Below, piece after piece: positions 15,426-62,888 of a DNA stretch of 64,000 bases. Numbering within the stretch: position 1 is the stretch's first letter; each line of letters begins with the position of its first letter. The notes beneath the pieces were generated by a model. The model ran no database searches. It saw only the letters and a list, made by a program, of their open reading frames with translations, and was not told where the DNA came from. Both the position numbers and the translations under genes were made by a program. The stretch is from Calliopum simillimum (Eukaryota > Arthropoda > Insecta > Diptera > Lauxaniidae), in assembly GCA_951812925.1 (NCBI GenBank), contig OX638368.1:83806909-83870908 (forward strand). The letters run 5' to 3'.

Positions 15426-16490
15426 AAAAAGTTATTACTGCAGTTTTTTTTTGTTTTTATTTGAAATTTTTAGCAAAATTTTTTTAATGTCTTATTCAAG
15501 TGATTAATATTAAATAACAGATATCATGGCAATGGTTCAATTTAAAATTGAAAATTTATAGCGAAATTTTCTTCGAATGCATTTATAAAAATATGTTTAA
15601 AGTAGAGTTGCCGAGATCTTATTGTGGTTGCTACATTTTTGCCCAGATTAGTGAGGTTATACAACTAAAACAACGGTTATAAGCGAAATAAAATGAGTAT
15701 TTAGTTTCAACGATTAACGCAAAACAAAGTACAGTGAAAGTCGCTTATAACGACGGCCAAGGGACCGCGCAAAACCGGTCGCTTTAACCGGCGGTTGTTA
15801 TATCCGATATTAACGCAAATAATTAAAATAAAAAACAGTGTTTGCATTTGCTATCAATTTTATTAAACTAACGTACTCAATGCAATTCTTTACAAACAAA
15901 ACTGAATTAACCCTTTTTTGCATGCAGTAAATACATCACGCCTTGTTTGAACTAGGTTTTACGTCGATGTCGTCCCATTCCATGTTTTTTTATGCAAAGT
16001 TATTCACTGGAGTCCAAATATACAGAAAAAGTTTTTTAAAATCGGTCAACGAGTTAATCGATTTTCAGAGTTGAATTTCAGTTACCAAATGGTCTTAACA
16101 TTGATTCCGAATCCAAAAAGAAAAAAAAGGTTTGCCAAAAATAATCTAAGAAACTAAAGTATGCAGTTCTTTTCCCAGACTCAAAAATGGTTTTTTCGAA
16201 AATTCTACCTGATCGCGTTAAAGAAATATTGTGTTTTTCAATATCTTGTCTGGTTTTCGAGAAATCTTAACCTTAAAGTTTGGTTTTTCGAGATTTTTGT
16301 GGATATAATCACATTTTTAAATCTCTCCTTTTGAGGCCAGATTTGGATTCAACATTGTAATTTACATTGAAAATTAATTTTTTTGTTTTTGTTTGTTGCT
16401 AATTTAAAAAATTTTATTTCAATGAATGATTTGATAATCGAGCCTGAGTCCAATCACTGCAATGTATATTTATAAAAACTAGATTTTTTT
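15426..16490. other. Intergenic sequence upstream of the H1 variant; one possible transposon end
   Basis: At 15732-15812 the words CAGTGAAAGTCGCTTATAACG and CGGTCGCTTTAACCGGCGG resemble the end of a Tigger/pogo-like transposon, but no partner end was found. A polypyrimidine tract and TTTTTTTACAG at 16484-16494 could be the acceptor of a 5' UTR intron of the H1 variant. Otherwise nothing is recognised. Confidence 0.3.
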
Positions 16491-16596
16491 TACAGTGTAT
16501 GCTGGAATTCACCGTTTATCCACTAACTGTATAAATGTACATATATGTTCTTTGAATCAAGAACATAAAAAGCTCTTCAGTTTTTCAGTCGTCACA

Positions 16597-16917
16597 ATGC
16601 CGCCGATAGCAGCACCGACATCGGAAATATCAAAATCAAAACCATCAACTGAAAAAATGGTTACAACGGCAATCAAGAGCCTTAATGAGCGGACTGGTTC
16701 TTCTGTTCAGGCTATCACGAAATTCATTGTTTCCAACTTTAACAGTATTGATGAGAAAAAAACTAGAACATTTATTAAAAAATACTTGAAAAAAGCGGTG
16801 AACGATGGTACACTCGTTCAGACCAGAGGTACAGGAGCAACTGGATCATTTAAAATTTCCGAAAATGCAATAAAGGCAAAAGCGGCCGAGTTGAAACTTA
16901 AAAACAAAAATAAAAAG
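16597..16917 (+). CDS. H1 variant, exon 1 (globular domain)
   Basis: 107 codons, from ATG to AAAAAG|GTAATA. It contains the complete H15 fold. Upstream, 16495-16596 stays open in frame but begins at a likely splice acceptor, so I treat it as 5' UTR. Confidence 0.85.
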
Positions 16918-17479
16918 GTAATAAAAGAAAATATCAATTCAAAAATTTTTTAAAAATTTATTAAAAATACAAGGATTTAATATGCTTGTTATTTTTTTCT
17001 TTGTTTTATTAAAGTCGCTTACTGAAACTACCAAAAAGCAAACTCAATTTGATGGACAAAAAAAAATTCAGAAAAAGAACCTGAAAAACACTGAAAAAAA
17101 GATTATAAAAAATGATAAAAAGGAGCCAAAATTAACAAAATCAGTAAAGCCTAAAGAAATTCAAGTTGTCGCTAAACTTAGCAAGTTGTCGGTGGAAGAA
17201 AATTCTGCGGATGAACTAGCCGCATCCGATGTGGAAAACAACAACATTACTTTAAAGGGTGCTGCAAAAAGTAAAAATCAGGCAACGAAATTGGTGCGTA
17301 AGTCGATAAGCATATTAAATACAGCAGCGCAACGCAAAATTAAACCCACCAAAAAGGATAAAACTGAGCTTGCAGAACCGACCGCTGAAGTTAAAACTGC
17401 AAGCGCTGAGGCTGAGAGTGAAGCAAATCCTTTAGTCCCCGCAAAAATTAAACGCAAAAAGATTGTTAAAGCAAAATAG
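16597..17479 (+). CDS. Linker histone H1 variant with an intron
   Basis: Linker histones bind nucleosomal entry/exit DNA and compact chromatin in the nucleus. The protein has 261 residues: a short N-tail rich in P/S/K, a winged-helix H15 domain at about residues 20-95 (MVTTAIKSLNERTGSSVQAI, FIKKYLKKAV, LVQTRGTGATGSFKIS), and a long lysine-rich C-tail with a small acidic patch (SVEENSADELAASD). The start at 16597 is in good context (CACAATGC). Exon 1 is 16597-16917 and exon 2 is 17015-17479; the 97-bp intron (GTAATAAAA to TTATTAAAG) is phase 0, just after the globular domain. Replication-dependent H1 genes lack introns and end in a stem-loop; none is visible here, so this is probably a replication-independent or germline variant. 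Whether it is the BigH1 orthologue cannot be decided. Confidence 0.85.
17015..17479 (+). CDS. H1 variant, exon 2 (C-terminal tail)
   Basis: 154 codons and TAG, opening after TTTTATTAAAG. It is strongly basic and ends KIKRKKIVKAK. It is frame-compatible with exon 1 in phase 0. Confidence 0.8.
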   Translation, partial: SLTETTKKQTQFDGQKKIQKKNLKNTEKKIIKNDKKEPKLTKSVKPKEIQVVAKLSKLSVEENSADELAASDVENNNITLKGAAKSKNQATKLVRKSISILNTAAQRKIKPTKKDKTELAEPTAEVKTASAEAESEANPLVPAKIKRKKIVKAK

Positions 17480-19065: not shown

Positions 19066-19509
19066 ATTTTTTTTTCTTCCTAAATAAAACAGAATTTAGT
19101 ATTAAAAATTCCTAATATTTTGTCTTATATACCCCTACTACACCCCTATAAAGATATTTTATTTAAAAAGTGTCAAAAATATAAAGAATAATTTCTTAAA
19201 GCAGGTACATTTTATTTAGCAATTCACACTAGAGTGGTCCAAATTTTGTATGGAAAAACCAAAAGTGTTAAAAAGTCAAGGTGCGCGTGAATCCTTGGAT
19301 CCTGCTGATTACAAAAAGTGCTTTGGAACCAAAAAAAAATTGCGTTTAGATATTCCGCAACGAGCTTGAATGTAATTTTTTAGGAATATTTGAGTTTCTG
19401 AGTACTTTTTTTAATTTAAACGCTATATCTTTTGAACCAGATAAGGTATTTGGAAAAATTAGATTGCATTTTTTTAAGAATATTTTGAGCCAAATTCTGC
19501 ATTAATAAA

Positions 19510-22620: not shown

Positions 22621-23450
22621 TACATACTGACTCAATATTTCCCTGTTTTGGGTGTAATTTTTGTACCTATTTTAGAAAAGGGCAAAAATTACCCACATGT
22701 GGGGGTCAAACATGGTTAAAAGTTTCTAAAAAAATATTCCCCGCAATATCCTGCATAAGTTTGCTGAACACATAATACACCTCAAATGTAAGGATCATAT
22801 AGTTAAATTCATCGATTTAACACAAGAATGCGGTATTTTTGTTTTTTTCATATACAGTGGAAAAAAAAACTTAAAAAATCGATTAAAAAAAAATGTGACG
22901 TGCTGGAGAAAAACCACGAGACACGGGTATTTTTTTTTAACGTCTACTTTAAGAATTTTTTGGATTTTCTCAAGTGTTTTTTTTTTGTGTCGAACGGTGT
23001 TATTGATGCAAAATATGGCTCAAAATATTTTAAAAAAAATGCGATTTAATTTTTGCAAATGCCTTATCAGGTTAAAAAGATATAGCGTTTAAAGTAAAAT
23101 AAGTACTCAAAAATTCCTATAAAAGTACCTTCAAGCTCGTTGCGGAATATCTAAACGCAATTTTTTTTTGGTTCCAAAGCACTTTTTGTAATCCGCAGGA
23201 TCCAAGGATTCAGAAAAGTCACGCGCACCTTGACTTTTTAACACTTTCGGATTTTGGACCACTCTACTATACATGCAATAATTTTACCTTATTATACTTT
23301 AACATAATTTTATGTTAAAAACTAATTGATTTTTATTTAATTGAACTTTTAGTCATATATTTGCAAAGATCGATTTACATATAAATCTATCAATGCATTT
23401 TTTCTAACACATAATTATGACAAATGAAGGAACGGATTAAAAACACGGCT

Positions 23451-23497
23451 ATAGTGACATATGTTTCGTCTTTCGCCACAAAGACTCATCAGACTAT
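23451..23497 (-). ncRNA. Hammerhead ribozyme motif (type I, minimal stem III)
   Basis: On the minus strand the order is ATAGT (stem I, 23497-23493), CTGATGA (core), GTCTTT-GTGGCG-AAAGAC (6-bp stem II with 6-nt loop), GAAA (core), ACA-TA-TGT (stem III, counting the last A of GAAA), C (cleavage after GUC, 23456), and ACTAT (stem I, 23455-23451). All invariant core bases and three helices are present in 47 nt. Such short-stem-III hammerheads are known from Penelope-like elements and retrozymes and often act as dimers. Here the motif overlaps the degenerate end of a hAT transposase. Activity is untested. Confidence 0.75.
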
Positions 23498-23733
23498 TTT
23501 AGATCTAAATTTATTACGTATATAACCTGCACACGAAAAGCATCTTTCTGATTCAACACTTGTTGGTTGAATTGAAGAAAGATAATCGAAAGTTTTCTGG
23601 AGGAAATAACCCCTATCACCACATTACAAAATATATCAATTTCTTTCATTAAAACGTCGGATAAATTATAAGACTTTCTAGAAAACAAATTTTTTGAAGT
23701 GGTATTCAAAACTAGATTTAATTTTTCTTTCAA
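23498..23733 (-). pseudogene. hAT transposase C-terminal dimerisation domain, frameshifted
   Basis: The minus strand gives LMKEIDIF, a frame change, then GDRGYFLQKTFDYLSSIQ, PTSVESERCFSCAGYIRN and KFRSK. PTSVESER-FS-AGYI-NK-RS is the core of the hAT dimerisation domain. A second frame change follows; the next words could be SDESL, also typical of hAT, and lie within the hammerhead motif. The N-terminal and catalytic parts are absent. Confidence 0.7.
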
Positions 23734-23885
23734 AATTATTGATGAGTTTACTTTAACTGTATGGCTATTGTCCTCAATTTTGCAAGAAGATTCAGTTTCA
23801 AATCTGGAGAGAATACGTTTTATCTCTACTTTAATGCGATTTAACGGCTTTGTCGTGGATGAAAGCTACTTCTTTTGCCAATTTT

Positions 23886-24794
23886 CTAATCTAATAAATC
23901 GTCAACATAATGATGGCTTATGACGGACGCTGCAGCCCTTGGAAACTTTTTCTCATTATCTAATGCATTTTTATTTTTGATATATTGCGCAGAGCTGGGA
24001 GAACATGCAGCACCAAAAGTCATTACCTGCATAACGTAGACATCAGGGTTTCTCTGAGTTTCATTACTGCGCCAAAGGGATCTCTGTGCATTTTGATCTT
24101 CTTCTCGAATTTTTACTTGGTGGAACATTTCCTTAATATCTGCACATATTGCAATCTTCCTTAAGCGAAAACCATATAAGACCGATATAAGTGGTGTCAT
24201 CAAGTCGAGGCCTTTTAAAAGTAATGAATTTAATGAAACTCCACGTACCTTTGCAGCAGCATCCCAAACGAGTCGAATTTTGCCTGGCTTGTTTGGGTTA
24301 ACAACTGTGAGTATGGGAAGATACCATGTACTTTTGTTGCATTGTGTTGCTTCTTTTGTAGACAATTTCTTTGCGTAGCCCTTTTCAACTAAATTTTCGA
24401 TTTGTCGTGTTATAATTGGCACTTGATCACTATTAAGCATCTTTTCTAGGCATTGAAGACGTCTCATGGCCATCGGATAGCTATCTGGAACTACAGGATT
24501 TTCGTTCTTCCATATCAAGCCAGTTTCAAATCGATTACCAATACGTTTTGTTGTTGATTGCATGACAAAATTTGCACGTTTTATTTCTGGTGAGACAATG
24601 GTCTTGCGTCCAACGTTTTCAAGAGACAGGTACTCAGATACTATTTTTTGAAGCTTTTCCATTTCAAATTCGCAATCGCAGTATTGTATGTTGTGGTAGG
24701 AAAGAGTTTGTCCTTGATTAGAATCACCTCCATGTAACACCCATCCAAGCCGAGTTTTAGAAGCATACGGCTCATTTGCTTTACCTTCAACCAC
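23886..24794 (-). CDS. BEL element reverse transcriptase, truncated
   Basis: 302 codons in the frame after the protease. Landmarks: ASKTRLGWVLHGG, GLIWKNENPVVPDSYPMA, KIRLVWDAAAKVRGVSLN, ADIKEMFHQVKIREEDQNAQ, TFGAACSPSSAQYI and HHYVDDLLD, the catalytic YVDD box. The frame stops right after YVDDLLD; another frame continues briefly with LAKEVAFIHDKAV. Later RT, RNase H and integrase are absent, so it cannot transpose alone. Confidence 0.85.
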   Translation of the reverse strand: MVEGKANEPYASKTRLGWVLHGGDSNQGQTLSYHNIQYCDCEFEMEKLQKIVSEYLSLENVGRKTIVSPEIKRANFVMQSTTKRIGNRFETGLIWKNENPVVPDSYPMAMRRLQCLEKMLNSDQVPIITRQIENLVEKGYAKKLSTKEATQCNKSTWYLPILTVVNPNKPGKIRLVWDAAAKVRGVSLNSLLLKGLDLMTPLISVLYGFRLRKIAICADIKEMFHQVKIREEDQNAQRSLWRSNETQRNPDVYVMQVMTFGAACSPSSAQYIKNKNALDNEKKFPRAAASVISHHYVDDLLD

Positions 24795-25385
24795 TTATAG
24801 TGTTTTACAAACGTAGCCATTGTAGAGTCCTATCAGAATTGCTGGAACTGCATTACTGTACGTTGATATTGGAATATTCTTGAAATGTTTATATGATAAT
24901 AAATTTTCTAGTTCTTTGCATTGAACTGGTAATAATAATTTATTATCTGTATAAACATTCAGCAAATCATATTTTCTTGCACTTGTAGTACACGCAGAAA
25001 TCTGTATGCTGACTTTCATTGAATCTTTTTCTATCCGTGATGTATCTGATGTCCATTTCAAACACAGATTGTTAACATCACTTTTCAGGCCCAACTGCAG
25101 AGCAACGCTTTTTTCTAGAAGAGTCACATTCGAACCATCATCCAAAAAGGCAAACGTATCAATGCTTCGATCTTTCGAGTGCAATGTCACTGGTTGAATT
25201 TTAAAATAAGTTTTGGTTCCATTAAAACTGGAGTGGGTAGTAACCTGAATAGGGTTTTGAATGAACTTGTGTAGCAATTTATGATGCCTTGCCTCACAAC
25301 CTTGTAAGGAACATTTTTCTTCAGTACAGCGGAAATTGCCATGTTTCTTCAGACATATCCGACATAATTTAAACTTACGAACCAC
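24795..25385 (-). CDS. BEL element zinc-finger and aspartic protease segment
   Basis: 196 codons. A Cys/His cluster (CRICLKKHGNFRC, then CSLQGCEARHHKLLH) precedes an aspartic protease core (TFAFLDDGSNVTLLE), as in DUF1758. It ends VCKTL and a stop, directly before the reverse transcriptase frame. In intact elements this is one pol reading frame, so the stop is a lesion. Confidence 0.85.
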   Translation of the reverse strand: MVRKFKLCRICLKKHGNFRCTEEKCSLQGCEARHHKLLHKFIQNPIQVTTHSSFNGTKTYFKIQPVTLHSKDRSIDTFAFLDDGSNVTLLEKSVALQLGLKSDVNNLCLKWTSDTSRIEKDSMKVSIQISACTTSARKYDLLNVYTDNKLLLPVQCKELENLLSYKHFKNIPISTYSNAVPAILIGLYNGYVCKTL

Positions 25386-25400
25386 ATCCTATCCTTCAGC

Positions 25401-26150
25401 TTACTTCATGTTGGAAAATTTTTCACATACATTGATTAAATGCTGCTTTTCACGCAGGATACATCTATTGTTGAATGCTGGTATTTTTTTAGCTTCGTGC
25501 TCATGAAAGTTGCCATTTACTTTTGTGAACAAAATAGAAGGAGTTACCAATGTTACAGCTTCTGCAAGATCAAAAAGCCATTTTGAAAAAGTAGATATGT
25601 TTGATTCTTGATTTCTGCAATGCATTGCCCAATTAAGCTTTGCCTGAGCCGGTAGTTTTTCCACGATCTCTGGGAGTAACAAAGGATTGTTCAAATGTAT
25701 CTCCAATCCAGAGGCTTCTAATGTTGAACATAAGTTTCTTACCACGATGGCGTAACTCACAAGGGATTCAAGTTTCTCTGGCTTGAGGACCGGTTCAGCA
25801 CGAATCTTGTCCAGAATTGTATTAAAAATAGTTTCTGGTCGTCCAAAAATCATTTTCAATGTTCGAATCACCTCTAAAACATTTTTTGGAAGCAAAAGGT
25901 GGCAGCTAACAGCATCTAAAGCTTTTCCTTTTGGACACTTTTGAAGACGTAAAAGTTTTTCGGAATCAGTATATCCACACATGTTAGTGCTTTCTACAAA
26001 AGAGCTGTAGAAGAGAGGACAGTCTTCAGGCTTTCCATTAAAAATCGGTAGCTCTTTTGAAACAGCTTGACGTGCAATTAATTGTCCTGACGTTAATTTA
26101 TTTTCCATTGGTTCCTTTTTAGGGACCTTGAAGATCCATTCTTGTACCAT
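25401..26150 (-). CDS. BEL element gag segment (DUF1759-like)
   Basis: 249 codons. ELPIFNGKPEDCPLFYSSF, LLRLQKCPKGKALDAV, FGRPETIFNTILDKI and LPAQAKLNWAMHC are the conserved signposts of BEL/Pao gag (DUF1759). It ends in a stop just before the zinc-finger/protease segment. The copy at 30645-31394 differs by one residue (K to N). Confidence 0.85.
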   Translation of the reverse strand: MVQEWIFKVPKKEPMENKLTSGQLIARQAVSKELPIFNGKPEDCPLFYSSFVESTNMCGYTDSEKLLRLQKCPKGKALDAVSCHLLLPKNVLEVIRTLKMIFGRPETIFNTILDKIRAEPVLKPEKLESLVSYAIVVRNLCSTLEASGLEIHLNNPLLLPEIVEKLPAQAKLNWAMHCRNQESNISTFSKWLFDLAEAVTLVTPSILFTKVNGNFHEHEAKKIPAFNNRCILREKQHLINVCEKFSNMK

Positions 26151-26213
26151 TTTAGATTTTCCACTCGTTACGCTTTTATTTTCACTGCAACCTTTTTGGG
26201 ATAGTGCAAGAAT

Positions 26214-26549
26214 TTAAAATTTATTTTCCAAATACTTCTTTTCAAGATTCTTTTCTTCCTCAAGACGTTCGAGTTCTAGATTTCGTCTTCGCTGCTCTGA
26301 GGACGCATTGGAGTGCACTGATGCAATGATTGTTTTAGCACTTTTTCCATCGCATTCATTTTCAGCTGCATTGCATTCGCATTTGGAACACTTCCAGGGT
26401 CGATTAGCCACAGAATCGTTTACTCCAGCGCAGGAATAGTGGTACCATGTATCACATACATCGCATTGGACCATCTCCGGCGAATCTTCCATTTGACATT
26501 GGCCACAGGAATTGCGGTTTTTTTGAGTTGGTGAATGGCAAATTATCAT
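26214..26549 (-). CDS. BEL element N-terminal PHD-finger segment
   Basis: 111 codons with NSCGQCQMEDSPEMVQC, DVCDTWYHYSCAGV and RPWKCSKC: a C4HC3 PHD finger of the kind that begins many insect BEL polyproteins. A basic/acidic coil follows (SEQRRRNLELERLEEEK). A stop separates it from the gag part, so the original frame is broken or joined across 26151-26213. Confidence 0.8.
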   Translation of the reverse strand: MIICHSPTQKNRNSCGQCQMEDSPEMVQCDVCDTWYHYSCAGVNDSVANRPWKCSKCECNAAENECDGKSAKTIIASVHSNASSEQRRRNLELERLEEEKNLEKKYLENKF

Positions 26550-26720
26550 TTTTTATAATAATTTTGAAGAATGTTCAAAAGAAAACAGTTTTTCCAATTT
26601 TTGAAAGTTTTTTTATTAAAATTAAAAGTTTACTTCAAAATTATTAGTGTTTTAGACAAGTTTTCTTTTGAAATTGAAAAATTAAATTCAATTTCTATTT
26701 GGTGTTTCTCCGTTTCTCCG

Positions 26721-29889: not shown

Positions 29890-30045
29890 AAATTTTTACT
29901 AAAAATATTTCAAATATTTTATAAAGAAAATAAAAAAATGTATTAATTTCTTTGTTGTTTTTTTATTTTTTTTGGAAATGAGTATATAATAGATACGTGA
30001 ATATTTTTATGCTATACACGAAGGTTTCCGAAGACCACCCGAAGG

Positions 30046-30600
30046 GAAAATATCTATGGCGGACTATCAACAAGCTTTAAGTGATAGTTTCTTGGAATAC
30101 CCGAATGTGTTCCAAGGTCACCCGAAGGCTTCATAGTCAAAACGAAGAAAATCTAGGTATACGAGAGGGAAAATATCTATGGCGGACTATCAACAAGCTT
30201 TAAGTGATAGTTTCTTGGAATACCCGAATGTGTTCCAAGGTCACCCGAAGGCTTCATAGTCAAAACGAAGAAAATCTAGGTATACGAGAGGGAAAATATC
30301 TATGGCGGACTATCAACAAGCTTTAAGTGATAGTTTCTTGGAATACCCGAATGTGTTCCAAGGTCACCCGAAGGCTTCATAGTCAAAACGAAGAAAATCT
30401 AGGTATACGAGAGGGAAAATATCTATGGCGGACTATCAACAAGCTTTAAGTGATAGTTTCTTGGAATACCCGAATGTGTTCCAAGGTCACCCGAAGGCTT
30501 CATAGTCAAAACGAAGAAAATCTAGGTATCCGAGATGGGAAAAATCTATGGCGAACTATCAACAAATTTTAATTGATAATTTTTCGGAATACCCGAAGGT
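30046..30600. repeat. 123-bp tandem satellite, four identical copies plus a diverged one
   Basis: Units start at 30046, 30169, 30292 and 30415, spaced exactly 123 bp and essentially identical. A diverged partial unit follows to 30600. Each contains CACCCGAAGGCTTCATAGTC and ATCTATGGCGGACTATCAAC. A decayed array of the same unit lies inverted at 49630-50010. The array directly abuts the BEL duplicate. Confidence 0.9.
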
Positions 30601-30644
30601 TCCCGACATAATTTAAACTTACGAACCACATCCTATCCTTCAGC

Positions 30645-31394
30645 TTACTTCATGTTGGAAAATTTTTCACATACATTGATTAAATGCTGCTTTTCACGCA
30701 GGATACATCTATTGTTGAATGCTGGTATTTTTTTAGCTTCGTGCTCATGAAAGTTGCCATTTACTTTTGTGAACAAAATAGAAGGAGTTACCAATGTTAC
30801 AGCTTCTGCAAGATCAAAAAGCCATTTTGAAAAAGTAGATATGTTTGATTCTTGATTTCTGCAATGCATTGCCCAATTAAGCTTTGCCTGAGCCGGTAGT
30901 TTTTCCACGATCTCTGGGAGTAACAAAGGATTGTTCAAATGTATCTCCAATCCAGAGGCTTCTAATGTTGAACATAAGTTTCTTACCACGATGGCGTAAC
31001 TCACAAGGGATTCAAGTTTCTCTGGCTTGAGGACCGGTTCAGCACGAATCTTGTCCAGAATTGTATTAAAAATAGTTTCTGGTCGTCCAAAAATCATTTT
31101 CAATGTTCGAATCACCTCTAAAACATTTTTTGGAAGCAAAAGGTGGCAGCTAACAGCATCTAAAGCTTTTCCTTTTGGACACTTTTGAAGACGTAAAAGG
31201 TTTTCGGAATCAGTATATCCACACATGTTAGTGCTTTCTACAAAAGAGCTGTAGAAGAGAGGACAGTCTTCAGGCTTTCCATTAAAAATCGGTAGCTCTT
31301 TTGAAACAGCTTGACGTGCAATTAATTGTCCTGACGTTAATTTATTTTCCATTGGTTCCTTTTTAGGGACCTTGAAGATCCATTCTTGTACCAT
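30645..31394 (-). CDS. BEL gag segment, second copy
   Basis: 249 codons, identical to the 25401-26150 copy except Asn for Lys in TDSENLLRLQKC. It is cut off from protease and polymerase. Confidence 0.8.
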   Translation of the reverse strand: MVQEWIFKVPKKEPMENKLTSGQLIARQAVSKELPIFNGKPEDCPLFYSSFVESTNMCGYTDSENLLRLQKCPKGKALDAVSCHLLLPKNVLEVIRTLKMIFGRPETIFNTILDKIRAEPVLKPEKLESLVSYAIVVRNLCSTLEASGLEIHLNNPLLLPEIVEKLPAQAKLNWAMHCRNQESNISTFSKWLFDLAEAVTLVTPSILFTKVNGNFHEHEAKKIPAFNNRCILREKQHLINVCEKFSNMK

Positions 31395-31457
31395 TTTAGA
31401 TTTTCCACTCGTTACGCTTTTATTTTCACTGCAACCTTTTTGGGATAGTGCAAGAAT

Positions 31458-31793
31458 TTAAAATTTATTTTCCAAATACTTCTTTTCAAGATTCTTTTCT
31501 TCCTCAAGACGTTCGAGTTCTAGATTTCGTCTTCGCTGCTCTGAGGACGCATTGGAGTGCACTGATGTAATGATTGTTTTAGCACTTTTTCCATCGCATT
31601 CATTTTCAGCTGCATTGCATTCGCATTTGGAACACTTCCAGGGTCGATTAGCCACAGAATCGTTTACTCCAGCGCAGGAATAGTGGTACCATGTATCACA
31701 TACATCGCATTGGACCATCTCCGGCGAATCTTCCATTTGACATTGGCCACAGGAATTGCGGTTTTTTTGAGTTGGTGAATGGCAAATTATCAT
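31458..31793 (-). CDS. BEL PHD-finger segment, second copy
   Basis: 111 codons, identical to 26214-26549 except Thr for Ala in AKTIITSVHSN. All PHD zinc ligands are retained. Confidence 0.8.
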   Translation of the reverse strand: MIICHSPTQKNRNSCGQCQMEDSPEMVQCDVCDTWYHYSCAGVNDSVANRPWKCSKCECNAAENECDGKSAKTIITSVHSNASSEQRRRNLELERLEEEKNLEKKYLENKF

Positions 31794-31945
31794 TTTTTAT
31801 AATAATTTTGAAGAATGTTCAAAAGAAAACAGTTTTTCCAATTTTTGAAAGTTTTTTTATTAAAATTAAAAGTTTACTTCAAAATTATTAGTGTTTTAGA
31901 CAAGTTTTCTTTTGAAATTGAAAAATTAAATTCAATTTCTATTTG

Positions 31946-43810: not shown

Positions 43811-45973
43811 GTGCAGGCAAATTAGGTAAAAACAGGTATTCATTTCTAATTTTGTTGAACATGCACCAATTTTGATCCGACAAGGCTCATTTTGTTCGTA
43901 ATAAAATTTAAAACAAAACCAACACATTAGTTTTTTCCGGCCTTTCCCCAAAATTTCTTTAGTCCCCCGTGAACCCTCACAATCGGATAAATTCAATAAA
44001 ACTGTTCTAAAATGCTTAAAAATGGGAAGTTATGCTATTCACGGGGTTCTCTAGATTGCTGAATCCAAATATGATGTTGGAAAATGAAAGAACTCAAAAT
44101 GGCGCCCGGAAAACTGCGTACATACCCATTTTAAGCACAAAAAATGGGAAAAAATCGTTACAGGGGGTTTTAGCCTAGAAGTTTTGTTACATTGAATGAA
44201 TTTATACGGTCGGTGTGGGATATTGTTTTTTATACTATAAAAAGTAAAGTTTACCAAAAATTTTTTTGTGTTTTTGATTTGTTTATTATTTAAGCAATAA
44301 CTATAAAAAGTTAATACAACTCAAAATTAAAAATATTTGTAACATTTGGCAAACCATTTTTTCTAAACTAATTTGAGGTCGCTGAACACGAAAAACCCAA
44401 TTATTTTTTTTCCTTGCGGCCGTTCCCGAGTTATTCGATAATTTATATTTTCGAGGTTATAGCTTCATATACATCAATATATTTCCATGACGCCAAGTTC
44501 GATCAACTTTATTTTTCCATTTTGACAAAGAGTGATTAATGGCGCTTCTAACAAGTATACCAATGATAATGCTTCGAACAAAATTGACTGAGTTATAGCA
44601 GGAAAAAGTTTGAAATTTCTCAAATTTTTGAAATTTTTCACATCAACTTCAAATGAAACATTTGGTTTTTGGCATATAATTTTTTTTAATACTTGTTTTT
44701 TAGTAGTTCTATTAAATGGCGCATATAATTGCAAACATTTTAGGCCTATGTTGAGCAAACTCGAATGAAATTTCCAAAAGATATTAAGGTTTTAGTGCAA
44801 TAAGGAAGATGTGAGAATTTTCGAAATGTTCGGCCTGAGTCAACAGATCCAATTTTTTAGCGTCCAGATAGGACACCCTACATTTATTGAACACTTTAAA
44901 GATGTTTTAAGTAACTTCTAATCATTCTCTGTGGAAGAACATTGCGGATTGTATCAAAAATATTAATTTTTGAAAGAAATCGAAATTTCACTATTGCACT
45001 AAAACCCTAATATCTTTTGGAAATTTCATTCGATTTTGCTCAATCTAGGCTTAAAATGTTTGCAATTATATGAGCCATTTAATAGAACTACTTAAAAACA
45101 AGTATTAAAAAAAATTATATGCCAAAAACCAAATGTTTCGTTTGAAGTTGATGTGAAAAATTTCAAAAATTTGAGAAATTTCAAACTTTTTCCTGCTATA
45201 ACTCAGTCAATTTTGTTCGAAGCATTATCATTGGTATACTTGTTAGAAGCGCCATTAATCACTCTGTCAAAATGGAAAAATAAAATTGATCGAACTTGGC
45301 GTCATGGAAATATATTGATGTATATGAAGCTATAACCTCGAAAATATAAATTATCGAATAACTCGGGAACGGCCGCAAGGAAAAAAAAAATAATTGGGTT
45401 TTTCGTGATCAGCGACCTCAAATTAGTTTAGAAAACATGGTTTGCCAAATGTTACAAATATTTTTAATTTTGAGATGTATTAACTTTTTATAGTTATTGC
45501 TTAAATAATAAACAAATCAAAAACACAAAAAAATTTTTGGTAAACTTTACTTTTTATAGTATAAAAAACAATATCCCACACCGACCGTATAAATTCATTC
45601 AATGTAACAAAAATTCTAGGCTAAAACCCCCTGTAACGATTTTTTCCCATTTTTGGTGCTTAAAATGGGTATGTACGCAGTTTTCCGGGCGCCATTTTGA
45701 GTTCTTTCATTTTCCAACATCATATTTGGATTCAGCAATCTAGAGAACCCCGTGAATAGCATAACTTCCCATTTTTAAGCATTTTAGAACAGTTTTATTG
45801 AATTTATCCGATTGTGAGGGTTCACGGGGGACTAAAGAAATTTTGGGGAAAGGCCGGAAAAAACTAATGTGTTGGTTTTGTTTTAAATTTTATTACGAAC
45901 AAAATGAGCCCTGTCGGATCAAAATCGGTGCATGTTCAACAAAATTATAAATGAATACCTAATTTGCCTGCAC
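43811..45973. mobile_element. 2.16-kb foldback, GTGCAGGCAAATTAGG ends, TA target duplication
   Basis: Both ends read GTGCAGGCAAATTAGG inwards and are flanked by TA. The arms stay closely similar for about 1 kb, with a short centre near 44880. They include ATGCACCAATTTTGATCCG, GATTGCTGAATCCAAATATG and ATCAACTTTATTTTTCCA. Partial copies lie at 6365 and 17670. There is no transposase. Confidence 0.85.
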
Positions 45974-61948: not shown

Positions 61949-62425
61949 TTATTTCTTACTGCCTACAATAGATAGTTTTTGATCATCAATATCAATCACA
62001 AAATCATGACAGCATTTGTTCAACGACTTCAGCCATGATTTGATTTGAATTAAAGCATTTAATAACGGCAGGCCCATTCGGTTTCGGATTTTTGTCTTAA
62101 TTAGGTTCATGATGCTAAAAACTTGTTCCACCTCAGCATTAGGAAAGGGAAGAACCAAAAATCTCATGGCAAAGGTTCCTATATCTTCAAATGGGTTATC
62201 ATTTTCAGCGTCTTCATATGCTAATACTTCACTCCAACATTCTATGGAATTTTTATTATGTTTCCATTTGACCAGGTACAAGTTATTAAGTTGATTTAAA
62301 ATCTGCATCTTTTTTTTTTGATAAGCAACTGCTAAAACTGCAATGGCAAAAACGGCAACGGTTAACAAAATTTTATCGTAATCTGATTTTGACATTTCAT
62401 AAGTGCTCACGATGTTGCCACCCAT
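61949..62425 (-). pseudogene. hAT transposase, C-terminal dimerisation part only
   Basis: 158 codons. The C-terminal half has MRFLVLPFPNAEVEQVFSIM, NLIKTKIRNRMGLPLLNALI and QIKSWL, the hAT dimerisation domain. The first 35 residues, including TVAVFAIAVLAVAYQ, are not transposase-like and start inside the terminal region of the element. The BED finger and RNase-H-like catalytic core are missing, so the copy is an internal-deletion derivative. Confidence 0.8.
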
Positions 62426-62888
62426 ATTTTTTTAGATGTACTTAATTCAATGCGGGAAAGTACTTTTTGGAGATCGAAAGTACTTTTTCAATCAGCCACA
62501 CATACTAAAAAAATAAAATAGCCCAATAGTCCGTGACACCTTGTGGAAAATCGTGGTGTCACAAAAATCTGATATTTTTTCGGTGTCACAGACAAAAACT
62601 AAGTGTCACATGTGACACCGAAAGTGTCACAATGGTAACGCTGACCGACCTCGAGCAAACCTAAGATCATGATCAAAAATCACATTTCGGAACAAAAGGG
62701 CTTATTTCCAAATGTTTTTTACATTTTGCAATTACTACAAATATGTAGGATTAGAATCTTTGGTCAACTCACTATAACACTGGAGACATTAAAAAAAAAA
62801 ATGGCTGTAAACAGCCCCTAAAGGTATTTTTTCATTACTGAAAATTTGTTTAACATTGTTTTACGCCCTTTTGAAAAATCACTCCTCA

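Follow-up and report, generated by a model that had tools for sequence, protein, structure and literature searches.

Judged by its sequence, the hammerhead motif on the minus strand at 23451-23497 of the window (the whole stretch of 64,000 nt that was analysed) is a genuine one, and it is part of a small non-coding mobile element; its self-cleavage is predicted. The element itself, its high copy number, its ends and the duplications that flank its insertions are directly observed in the genome. We think it probable, with good confidence, that it is a non-coding, non-autonomous element of the retrozyme type that depends on a Penelope-like element (PLE) for its copying in trans. The features around the motif are as follows:

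23000..23264, minus strand: another repeat, beginning with GAGTGGTCC, which abuts the hAT 3' end; an inverted copy lies near 19232-19508
23266..23327, minus strand: 3' terminal 62 nt of a hAT element, of the same hAT family as 23498..23844
23324..23500, minus strand: 5'-truncated copy of the element, 177 nt, corresponding to unit positions 325-496 and ending at the short 3' end of the family
23451..23497, minus strand: type I hammerhead motif with a two-stranded stem I, core, stem II, GAAA, stem III and GUC
23498..23844, minus strand: degenerate, frameshifted 3' coding part of a hAT transposase, ending with ...RNKFRSK at the junction
23886..26213, minus strand: retrotransposon fragments (RVT_1, DUF1759) upstream of the hAT fragment, which we take to be BEL/Pao-like

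Every hammerhead part named in the preliminary description of this DNA was found at its place, read on the minus strand from 23497 to 23451. Stem I pairs ATAGT (23497-23493) with ACTAT (23455-23451), the core CTGATGA occupies 23492-23486, and stem II comprises 6 bp (GTCTTT, 23485-23480, with AAAGAC, 23473-23468) around the loop GTGGCG. After the GAA, ACATATGT can be read as a stem III of ACA/TGT with a 2-nt loop, more plausibly as AC/GT with an ATAT tetraloop; the palindromic stem III sequence is ACAUAUGU. The GTC triplet ends at 23456, and cleavage is predicted 3' of this position. The motif thus has the make-up of a type I hammerhead: the invariant CUGANGA...GAAA, three stems of 5, 6 and 2-3 bp, GUC as the NUH site and an open stem I.

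In a descriptor scan of the 64-kb window, this was the single complete hammerhead motif. The chance level was estimated from 161 Mb of sequence simulated with an order-1 Markov model and scanned on both strands. Loose matches numbered 52 (0.041 per 64 kb), matches with at least 5 bp in both stems I and II only 2 (0.0016 per 64 kb), and those with compact loops in addition 0, where the strict and compact limits had been chosen after the motif was seen.

The comparison with a hammerhead covariance model, suggested in the preliminary description, did yield a match to RF00008 (a type III model; 26.0 bits, E=0.0068 in a 1.4-kb stretch), albeit one below the gathering score of 48.5. Six other copies of the element reached 23.5-25.1 bits, likewise under the 48.5 threshold, and an Rfam scan of the whole window at gathering thresholds reported nothing. 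No other hammerhead families appeared in the Rfam listing, from which the tool drops overlapping clan members. Such a threshold is an aid to detection and not a defining feature of a hammerhead; the low score would be understandable for an unusual type I motif whose stem III is minimal. When a 53-nt stretch was folded, stems I and II formed, but the fold was no better than those of shuffled sequences (z -0.18); once 80 nt of the surrounding element are included, a structure other than the hammerhead has the lowest energy. The stem columns hardly vary among copies of the element, which were partly chosen for an intact motif, a choice that biases the divergence figures, which we do not count as evidence of selection. 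Among 13 distinct motifs from the element and of PLE type, stem II has 5-7 pairs in nine, 3 in three and 2 in one; its sequences differ among the 13, with the first two pairs mostly fixed by the search pattern.

When no more than 3 mismatches are allowed, the 37-nt hammerhead core has 2,276 matches in the genome; for the inner tail there are 2,504, and each of the reversed controls gave 0. Fuller copies consist of 541-nt units, arranged in tandem or head-to-head, in which a hammerhead block (75 nt) is followed by a tail (143 nt), 9 nt, a spacer (73 nt), an arm (74 nt), a tRNA-like stretch (88 nt) and a linker (79 nt). In the places listed, head-to-tail units lie 539-568 nt apart; one example is a series of five hammerheads spaced 544 nt on contig C1. 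Inverted (head-to-head) arrays also occur, in many copies with the tails outermost. The GC content of the unit is 32.5%, and the longest open stretch in a doubled unit extends over 107 codons from stop to stop. Upstream of the hammerhead, the tRNA-like stretch contains, by eye, A-box-like and B-box-like words, for which we presumed the usual consensus of the two boxes. The copy in the window is continuous from AAAATAGT to AAAATCAATT and aligns by BLAST with 95% identity over 185 columns to the 541-nt unit (reference taken from locus L005).

A 227-nt circular unit (23266-23492) closed by TATAGT was also considered and rejected: its end pairing is no better than that of shuffles (34% of which were as good), and the stretch 23327-23266 turned out to be hAT sequence. 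Scans for viral contigs gave 0 hits. Two loci (L033:4180-5215 and L035:4640-5620) carry a related longer element between hammerhead and tail, with another tRNA-like stretch and a degenerate hammerhead (in L035: CTGATGT, GACGTAAA), pointing to a wider superfamily.

The ends of the insertions were classified in 52 copy clusters from 49 loci, of which 33 are head-to-head with the tails outermost and 19 single-armed (5 of these being fragments in L033, L035 and L038). The 85 3' ends fall mainly into two classes about 43 nt apart, with 38 at unit positions 525-541 (long) and 37 at 480-515 (short); one lies at 521 and nine below 480. Among the 33 head-to-head insertions, 27 combine a long with a short end, none has two long or two short ends, and six have an end outside both classes. 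Hence, wherever both ends of a two-armed insertion could be classified, the pair was long plus short (27/27). One of the six remaining insertions (L031) is split, with more tail, to position 508, about 1.6 kb away. The rule of one long and one short end suggests that priming may be asymmetric within each insertion event.

Loci L039-L068 had been chosen by an exact hammerhead and L069-L084 by an exact match to the inner tail, neither of which concerns the outer ends. Clusters shorter than 100 nt (including that of L070) and repeat views of one insertion (L041, L048, L049, L053, L059 and L067) were excluded, and L031-L038 took the place of L002-L009. The single-armed L050 and L051 possibly represent one duplicated insertion.

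Flanking duplications of at least 10 nt were present in 16 of 28 insertions (a sample that excludes L069-L084), compared with 1.1% of 756 cross-paired flanks. The insertion flanks are 85% AT versus 67% in the window; for the window copy, no recognisable target duplication was found (5 nt). An AC-rich hairpin, TTAAGT-AACAC-ACTTAA (unit positions 515-531), sits between the two end positions. At the 5' side, none of the 81 listed junctions falls on the predicted cleavage site (unit position 370), and the idea of 5' ends defined by the ribozyme is therefore unsupported, which speaks against a role for cleavage in producing the template; 12 junctions lie at 371-394, i.e. 1-24 nt 3' of the cut, and eight at an A-run at 325-329.

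The tRNA-like stretch with its box-like words upstream of the hammerhead could also be that of a tRNA-derived SINE moved by a LINE in the ordinary way, with the hammerhead as a passenger and the two ends as variants of the family, and LINE-made copies, too, show 5' truncation and target-site duplications (TSDs). We regard this as unlikely. ARAGORN reported 0 tRNAs in the unit at default (with a relaxed threshold there were two calls, one of them 'tRNA-???' at 173-245), and Rfam gave no tRNA match in the element copies at E<=1. A consistent poly-A or simple-repeat 3' end is missing, A-runs adjoining the short end in L042 and L044 among 27 insertions listed. Finally, 27 of the 33 two-armed insertions are head-to-head pairs of one long and one short end, and we know of no LINE signature of this kind.

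Very improbable, in our view, is a foldback or terminal-inverted-repeat DNA element, in which the inverted tails would be transposon ends and the hammerheads incidental. It would account for the inverted arms with outermost tails seen in many copies, but neither for the single-armed state of 19 of the 52 clusters (5 of them fragments) nor for tandem units 539-568 nt apart, and the unit has no long open frame. The arms are truncated at varied inner points and the outer ends differ by about 43 nt in length, which rules against reading the inverted tails as those of a DNA transposon.

The hammerhead copy adjoins hAT sequence on both sides. All 347 nt of the hAT part 23498..23844 align at 88-97% in 19 of 21 hAT loci (shorter in two), and its match to Pfam PF05699 scores 16.4 bits, below the cut-off of 21.4. 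The terminal stretch 23266..23327, whole or in most of its length, recurs in 17 of the 21 loci and lies about 1.1 kb 3' of the junction point in one of them (L020), so that the window lacks about 1.1 kb of hAT between this stretch and 23498. Since 23844-23498 and 23327-23266 are thus separated by about 1.1 kb in L020, the hAT element in the window has a gap, and the hammerhead copy spans it. A protein search for hAT relatives yielded one candidate, and none was scored.

The preliminary description had read at the hammerhead the sequence SDESL, taken as the hAT dimerisation motif expected after NKFRSK. This does not hold: following RNKFRSK, the 21 hAT copies (L010-L030) read LDDK (16 copies), a stop and then DDK (2), LNDE (2) or FNDK (1), and SDESL in none. 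To explain the overlap it had left two options, an origin of the motif within hAT or the joining of a ribozyme-bearing retroelement at microhomology. With 21 of 21 hAT copies lacking SDESL and unrelated 5' flanks in other hammerhead copies, the former fails; the latter is borne out by an element of more than 2,000 copies whose junction with hAT shares AAA/AAAT. The further copies in the genome, whose flanks it had proposed to compare, keep the two sides apart. With a query of 140 nt across the junction, 40 of 451 candidates were scored, of which 31 match the hAT side and eight the hammerhead side, and only the window itself spans both; alignments of the two sides overlap at most at query positions 53-73. 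None of the other hammerhead-side matches among these 40 is preceded by hAT, and hammerhead copies elsewhere share a common core behind unrelated 5' flanks. The hammerhead overlaps the protein motif SDESL by coincidence, at a microhomology of AAA(A)T. That the hammerhead emerged by chance or through minor mutations within the hAT gene, CTGATGAGTCTTTG encoding the dimerisation motif SDESL, can practically be dismissed. A shift by one frame does yield SDESL where it would be expected, and a composite translation containing it aligns with PF05699 as far as this motif, with a score under the cut-off; but the 40-match search with its hammerhead-side matches free of hAT in front, the 2,276 core copies and the deviation of 21 of 21 hAT copies after RNKFRSK rule it out, and chance motifs of such quality are rare.

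Elsewhere in the window, part of a BEL/Pao-like element is duplicated (25359-26701 and 30603-31945, 99.85% identity, 5.2 kb apart), and a tandem array at 30040-30603 adjoins it. The inverted pair 43834-44802 / 44992-45960 (about 970 nt, 97.8% identity, spacer of about 190 nt) is a recent foldback structure. An open frame at 16483-16953 presumably resembles the globular domain of histone H1, and we take 61949-62431 to be a second, different hAT-like C-terminal fragment.

The preliminary description had also named Penelope-like elements among the carriers of such hammerheads. This lead was right in kind, since hallmarks published for PLEs are present at the ends of the insertions; the copy, however, is non-coding and no PLE gene itself. 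In the genome there are 51 GIY-YIG matches, several of them in inverted pairs, and all four open frames that were fetched combine RVT_1 with GIY-YIG. For at least 14 of the 51 matches, a hammerhead-like motif lies within 2.5 kb on the 3' side (12 at 135-456 nt, two at about 1.8-2.0 kb), a lower bound because 25 of 100 listed places (108 in all), picked by eye, were used. The pattern for this PLE-type motif occurs at 108 genome places and 0 times in the control. The PLE motifs carry one extra nucleotide after CUGAUGA, which is absent from the hammerhead of the element, and Rfam gave no hammerhead in four PLE loci at E<=5. In L085, L086, L088, L089 and L090/L091 the motifs are situated in the 3' region behind GIY-YIG and have varied, mostly paired stems II.

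A partner PLE that convincingly shares the hammerhead or tail of the element was not found among the four PLE loci compared, where the best DNA match is 70% over 61 AT-rich nt (E=2e-4). A comparison of both ends was possible for a single PLE insertion, and its two arms end at the same point; in a second, one arm is interrupted. On the evidence of the first, the rule of one long and one short end is unsupported for the PLEs of this genome. The second and third best GIY-YIG matches (C183:63226-63453 and C104:11024-11251) lie on small contigs in open frames of 612 and 622 codons; by their length we presume that these could be bacterial uvrC genes from a contaminant or symbiont.

For a retrozyme copied in trans by a PLE, we propose the following course. 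The repeat would be transcribed, possibly from the tRNA-like internal promoter, and the hammerhead could cut the multimeric RNA into units, perhaps as a dimer pairing via the palindromic ACAUAUGU; circular RNA might arise from such units. The reverse transcriptase/GIY-YIG nuclease of a PLE would bind the 3' part of the element RNA and open AT-rich DNA on both strands. cDNA synthesis would start at two sites about 43 nt apart with the hairpin TTAAGT-AACAC-ACTTAA between them, one cDNA from each site. The two cDNAs, each truncated at its 5' side, would then join head-to-head through microhomology, so that the finished insertion has a long end, a short end and a duplicated target. The copy in the window has a single arm that stops at the 5' edge of the hammerhead and lies within a hAT element from which about 1.1 kb is missing. 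The evidence seems to us evenly balanced on a more specific proposal, namely that a retrozyme with a tRNA-like (Pol III) head parasitises PLEs, its RNA mimicking the PLE start hairpin and a PLE dimer priming exactly one cDNA per neighbouring site.

The family bears on the question what moves ribozyme elements in animals. PLEs have been named as strong candidates for moving animal retrozymes (PMC7229834), and the repeats are described, in the parts of PMC7761336 drawn on here, as showing no conserved motif from which a partner could be deduced. As the PLE insertion signature is present in 27 of 33 two-armed insertions, this question becomes directly testable in one genome. The strict pairing of long and short ends is relevant, too, to the way in which PLE enzymes prime the two strands. 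If the element is indeed a parasite of PLEs, the machinery that moves metazoan retrozymes would be identified, and PLE integration in vivo would be shown to obey a strict rule of one cDNA per site. Retrozymes and PLE hammerheads are already known; an animal retrozyme with the tail structure of PLEs is apparently unreported, since in a literature search, mostly at the level of titles and abstracts, we saw no report that links the two.

How does the element compare with known systems? With the LTR retrozymes of plants it shares the non-autonomous state and the spread with hammerheads (PMC4918200, PMC7761336). The plant elements are described as having type III hammerheads in LTRs, PBS/PPT and 4-bp TSDs (PMC4918200, PMC7761336), whereas our element lacks a coding region and has longer TSDs as well as inverted arms. 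SMalpha/Sjalpha of schistosomes are likewise SINE-like repeats with a type I hammerhead, though of another phylum, a likeness taken from their description (PMC8490949).

Closer are the metazoan non-LTR retrozymes (Cervera and de la Pena 2020, PMC7229834), which are described as non-coding, low in GC and high in copy number, with tandem repeats, a type I hammerhead with a tiny stem III and coexistence with PLEs. All of these traits are found here, together with TSDs. The unit of 541 nt differs from the 150-450 bp quoted, which is not a strict limit, circles from 150 to >1000 nt being mentioned as well (PMC7229834). Unlike the retrozymes as described in the parts of that paper drawn on here, the element has a tRNA-like stretch and head-to-head insertions with PLE-type tails.

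From PLEs the element differs in the lack of an ORF and of the extra hammerhead nucleotide that marks the PLE motifs of this genome. In a lizard PLE, which itself has a hammerhead, reverse transcription by the purified protein begins within an AC-rich stem loop, at two neighbouring internal positions, and the protein cuts and extends both strands at AT-rich DNA; the interval between the start sites is an optional genomic tail of 30-40 bp, and unprocessed RNA is the main template (PMC11167929). In the parts of that paper drawn on here, start sites in vitro show no difference between the strands (PMC11167929). In rotifer PLEs, one of the inverted pseudo-LTRs (pLTRs) may carry a 31-bp tail, the TSDs are 8-10 bp long and head-to-head junctions are palindromic; a foreign gene, too, has been described as mobilised by them in trans (PMC3846280). 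The tail signature recurs in our element as two alternative 3' ends, the longer on one inverted arm, and short TSDs at AT-rich targets were found in the sample of 28 insertions. Common to both are thus the hammerhead, two adjacent start sites or ends and an AC-rich hairpin (PMC11167929), as well as inverted arms with a tail on one, tandem or inverted arrays, AT-rich targets and short TSDs (PMC11167929, PMC3846280).
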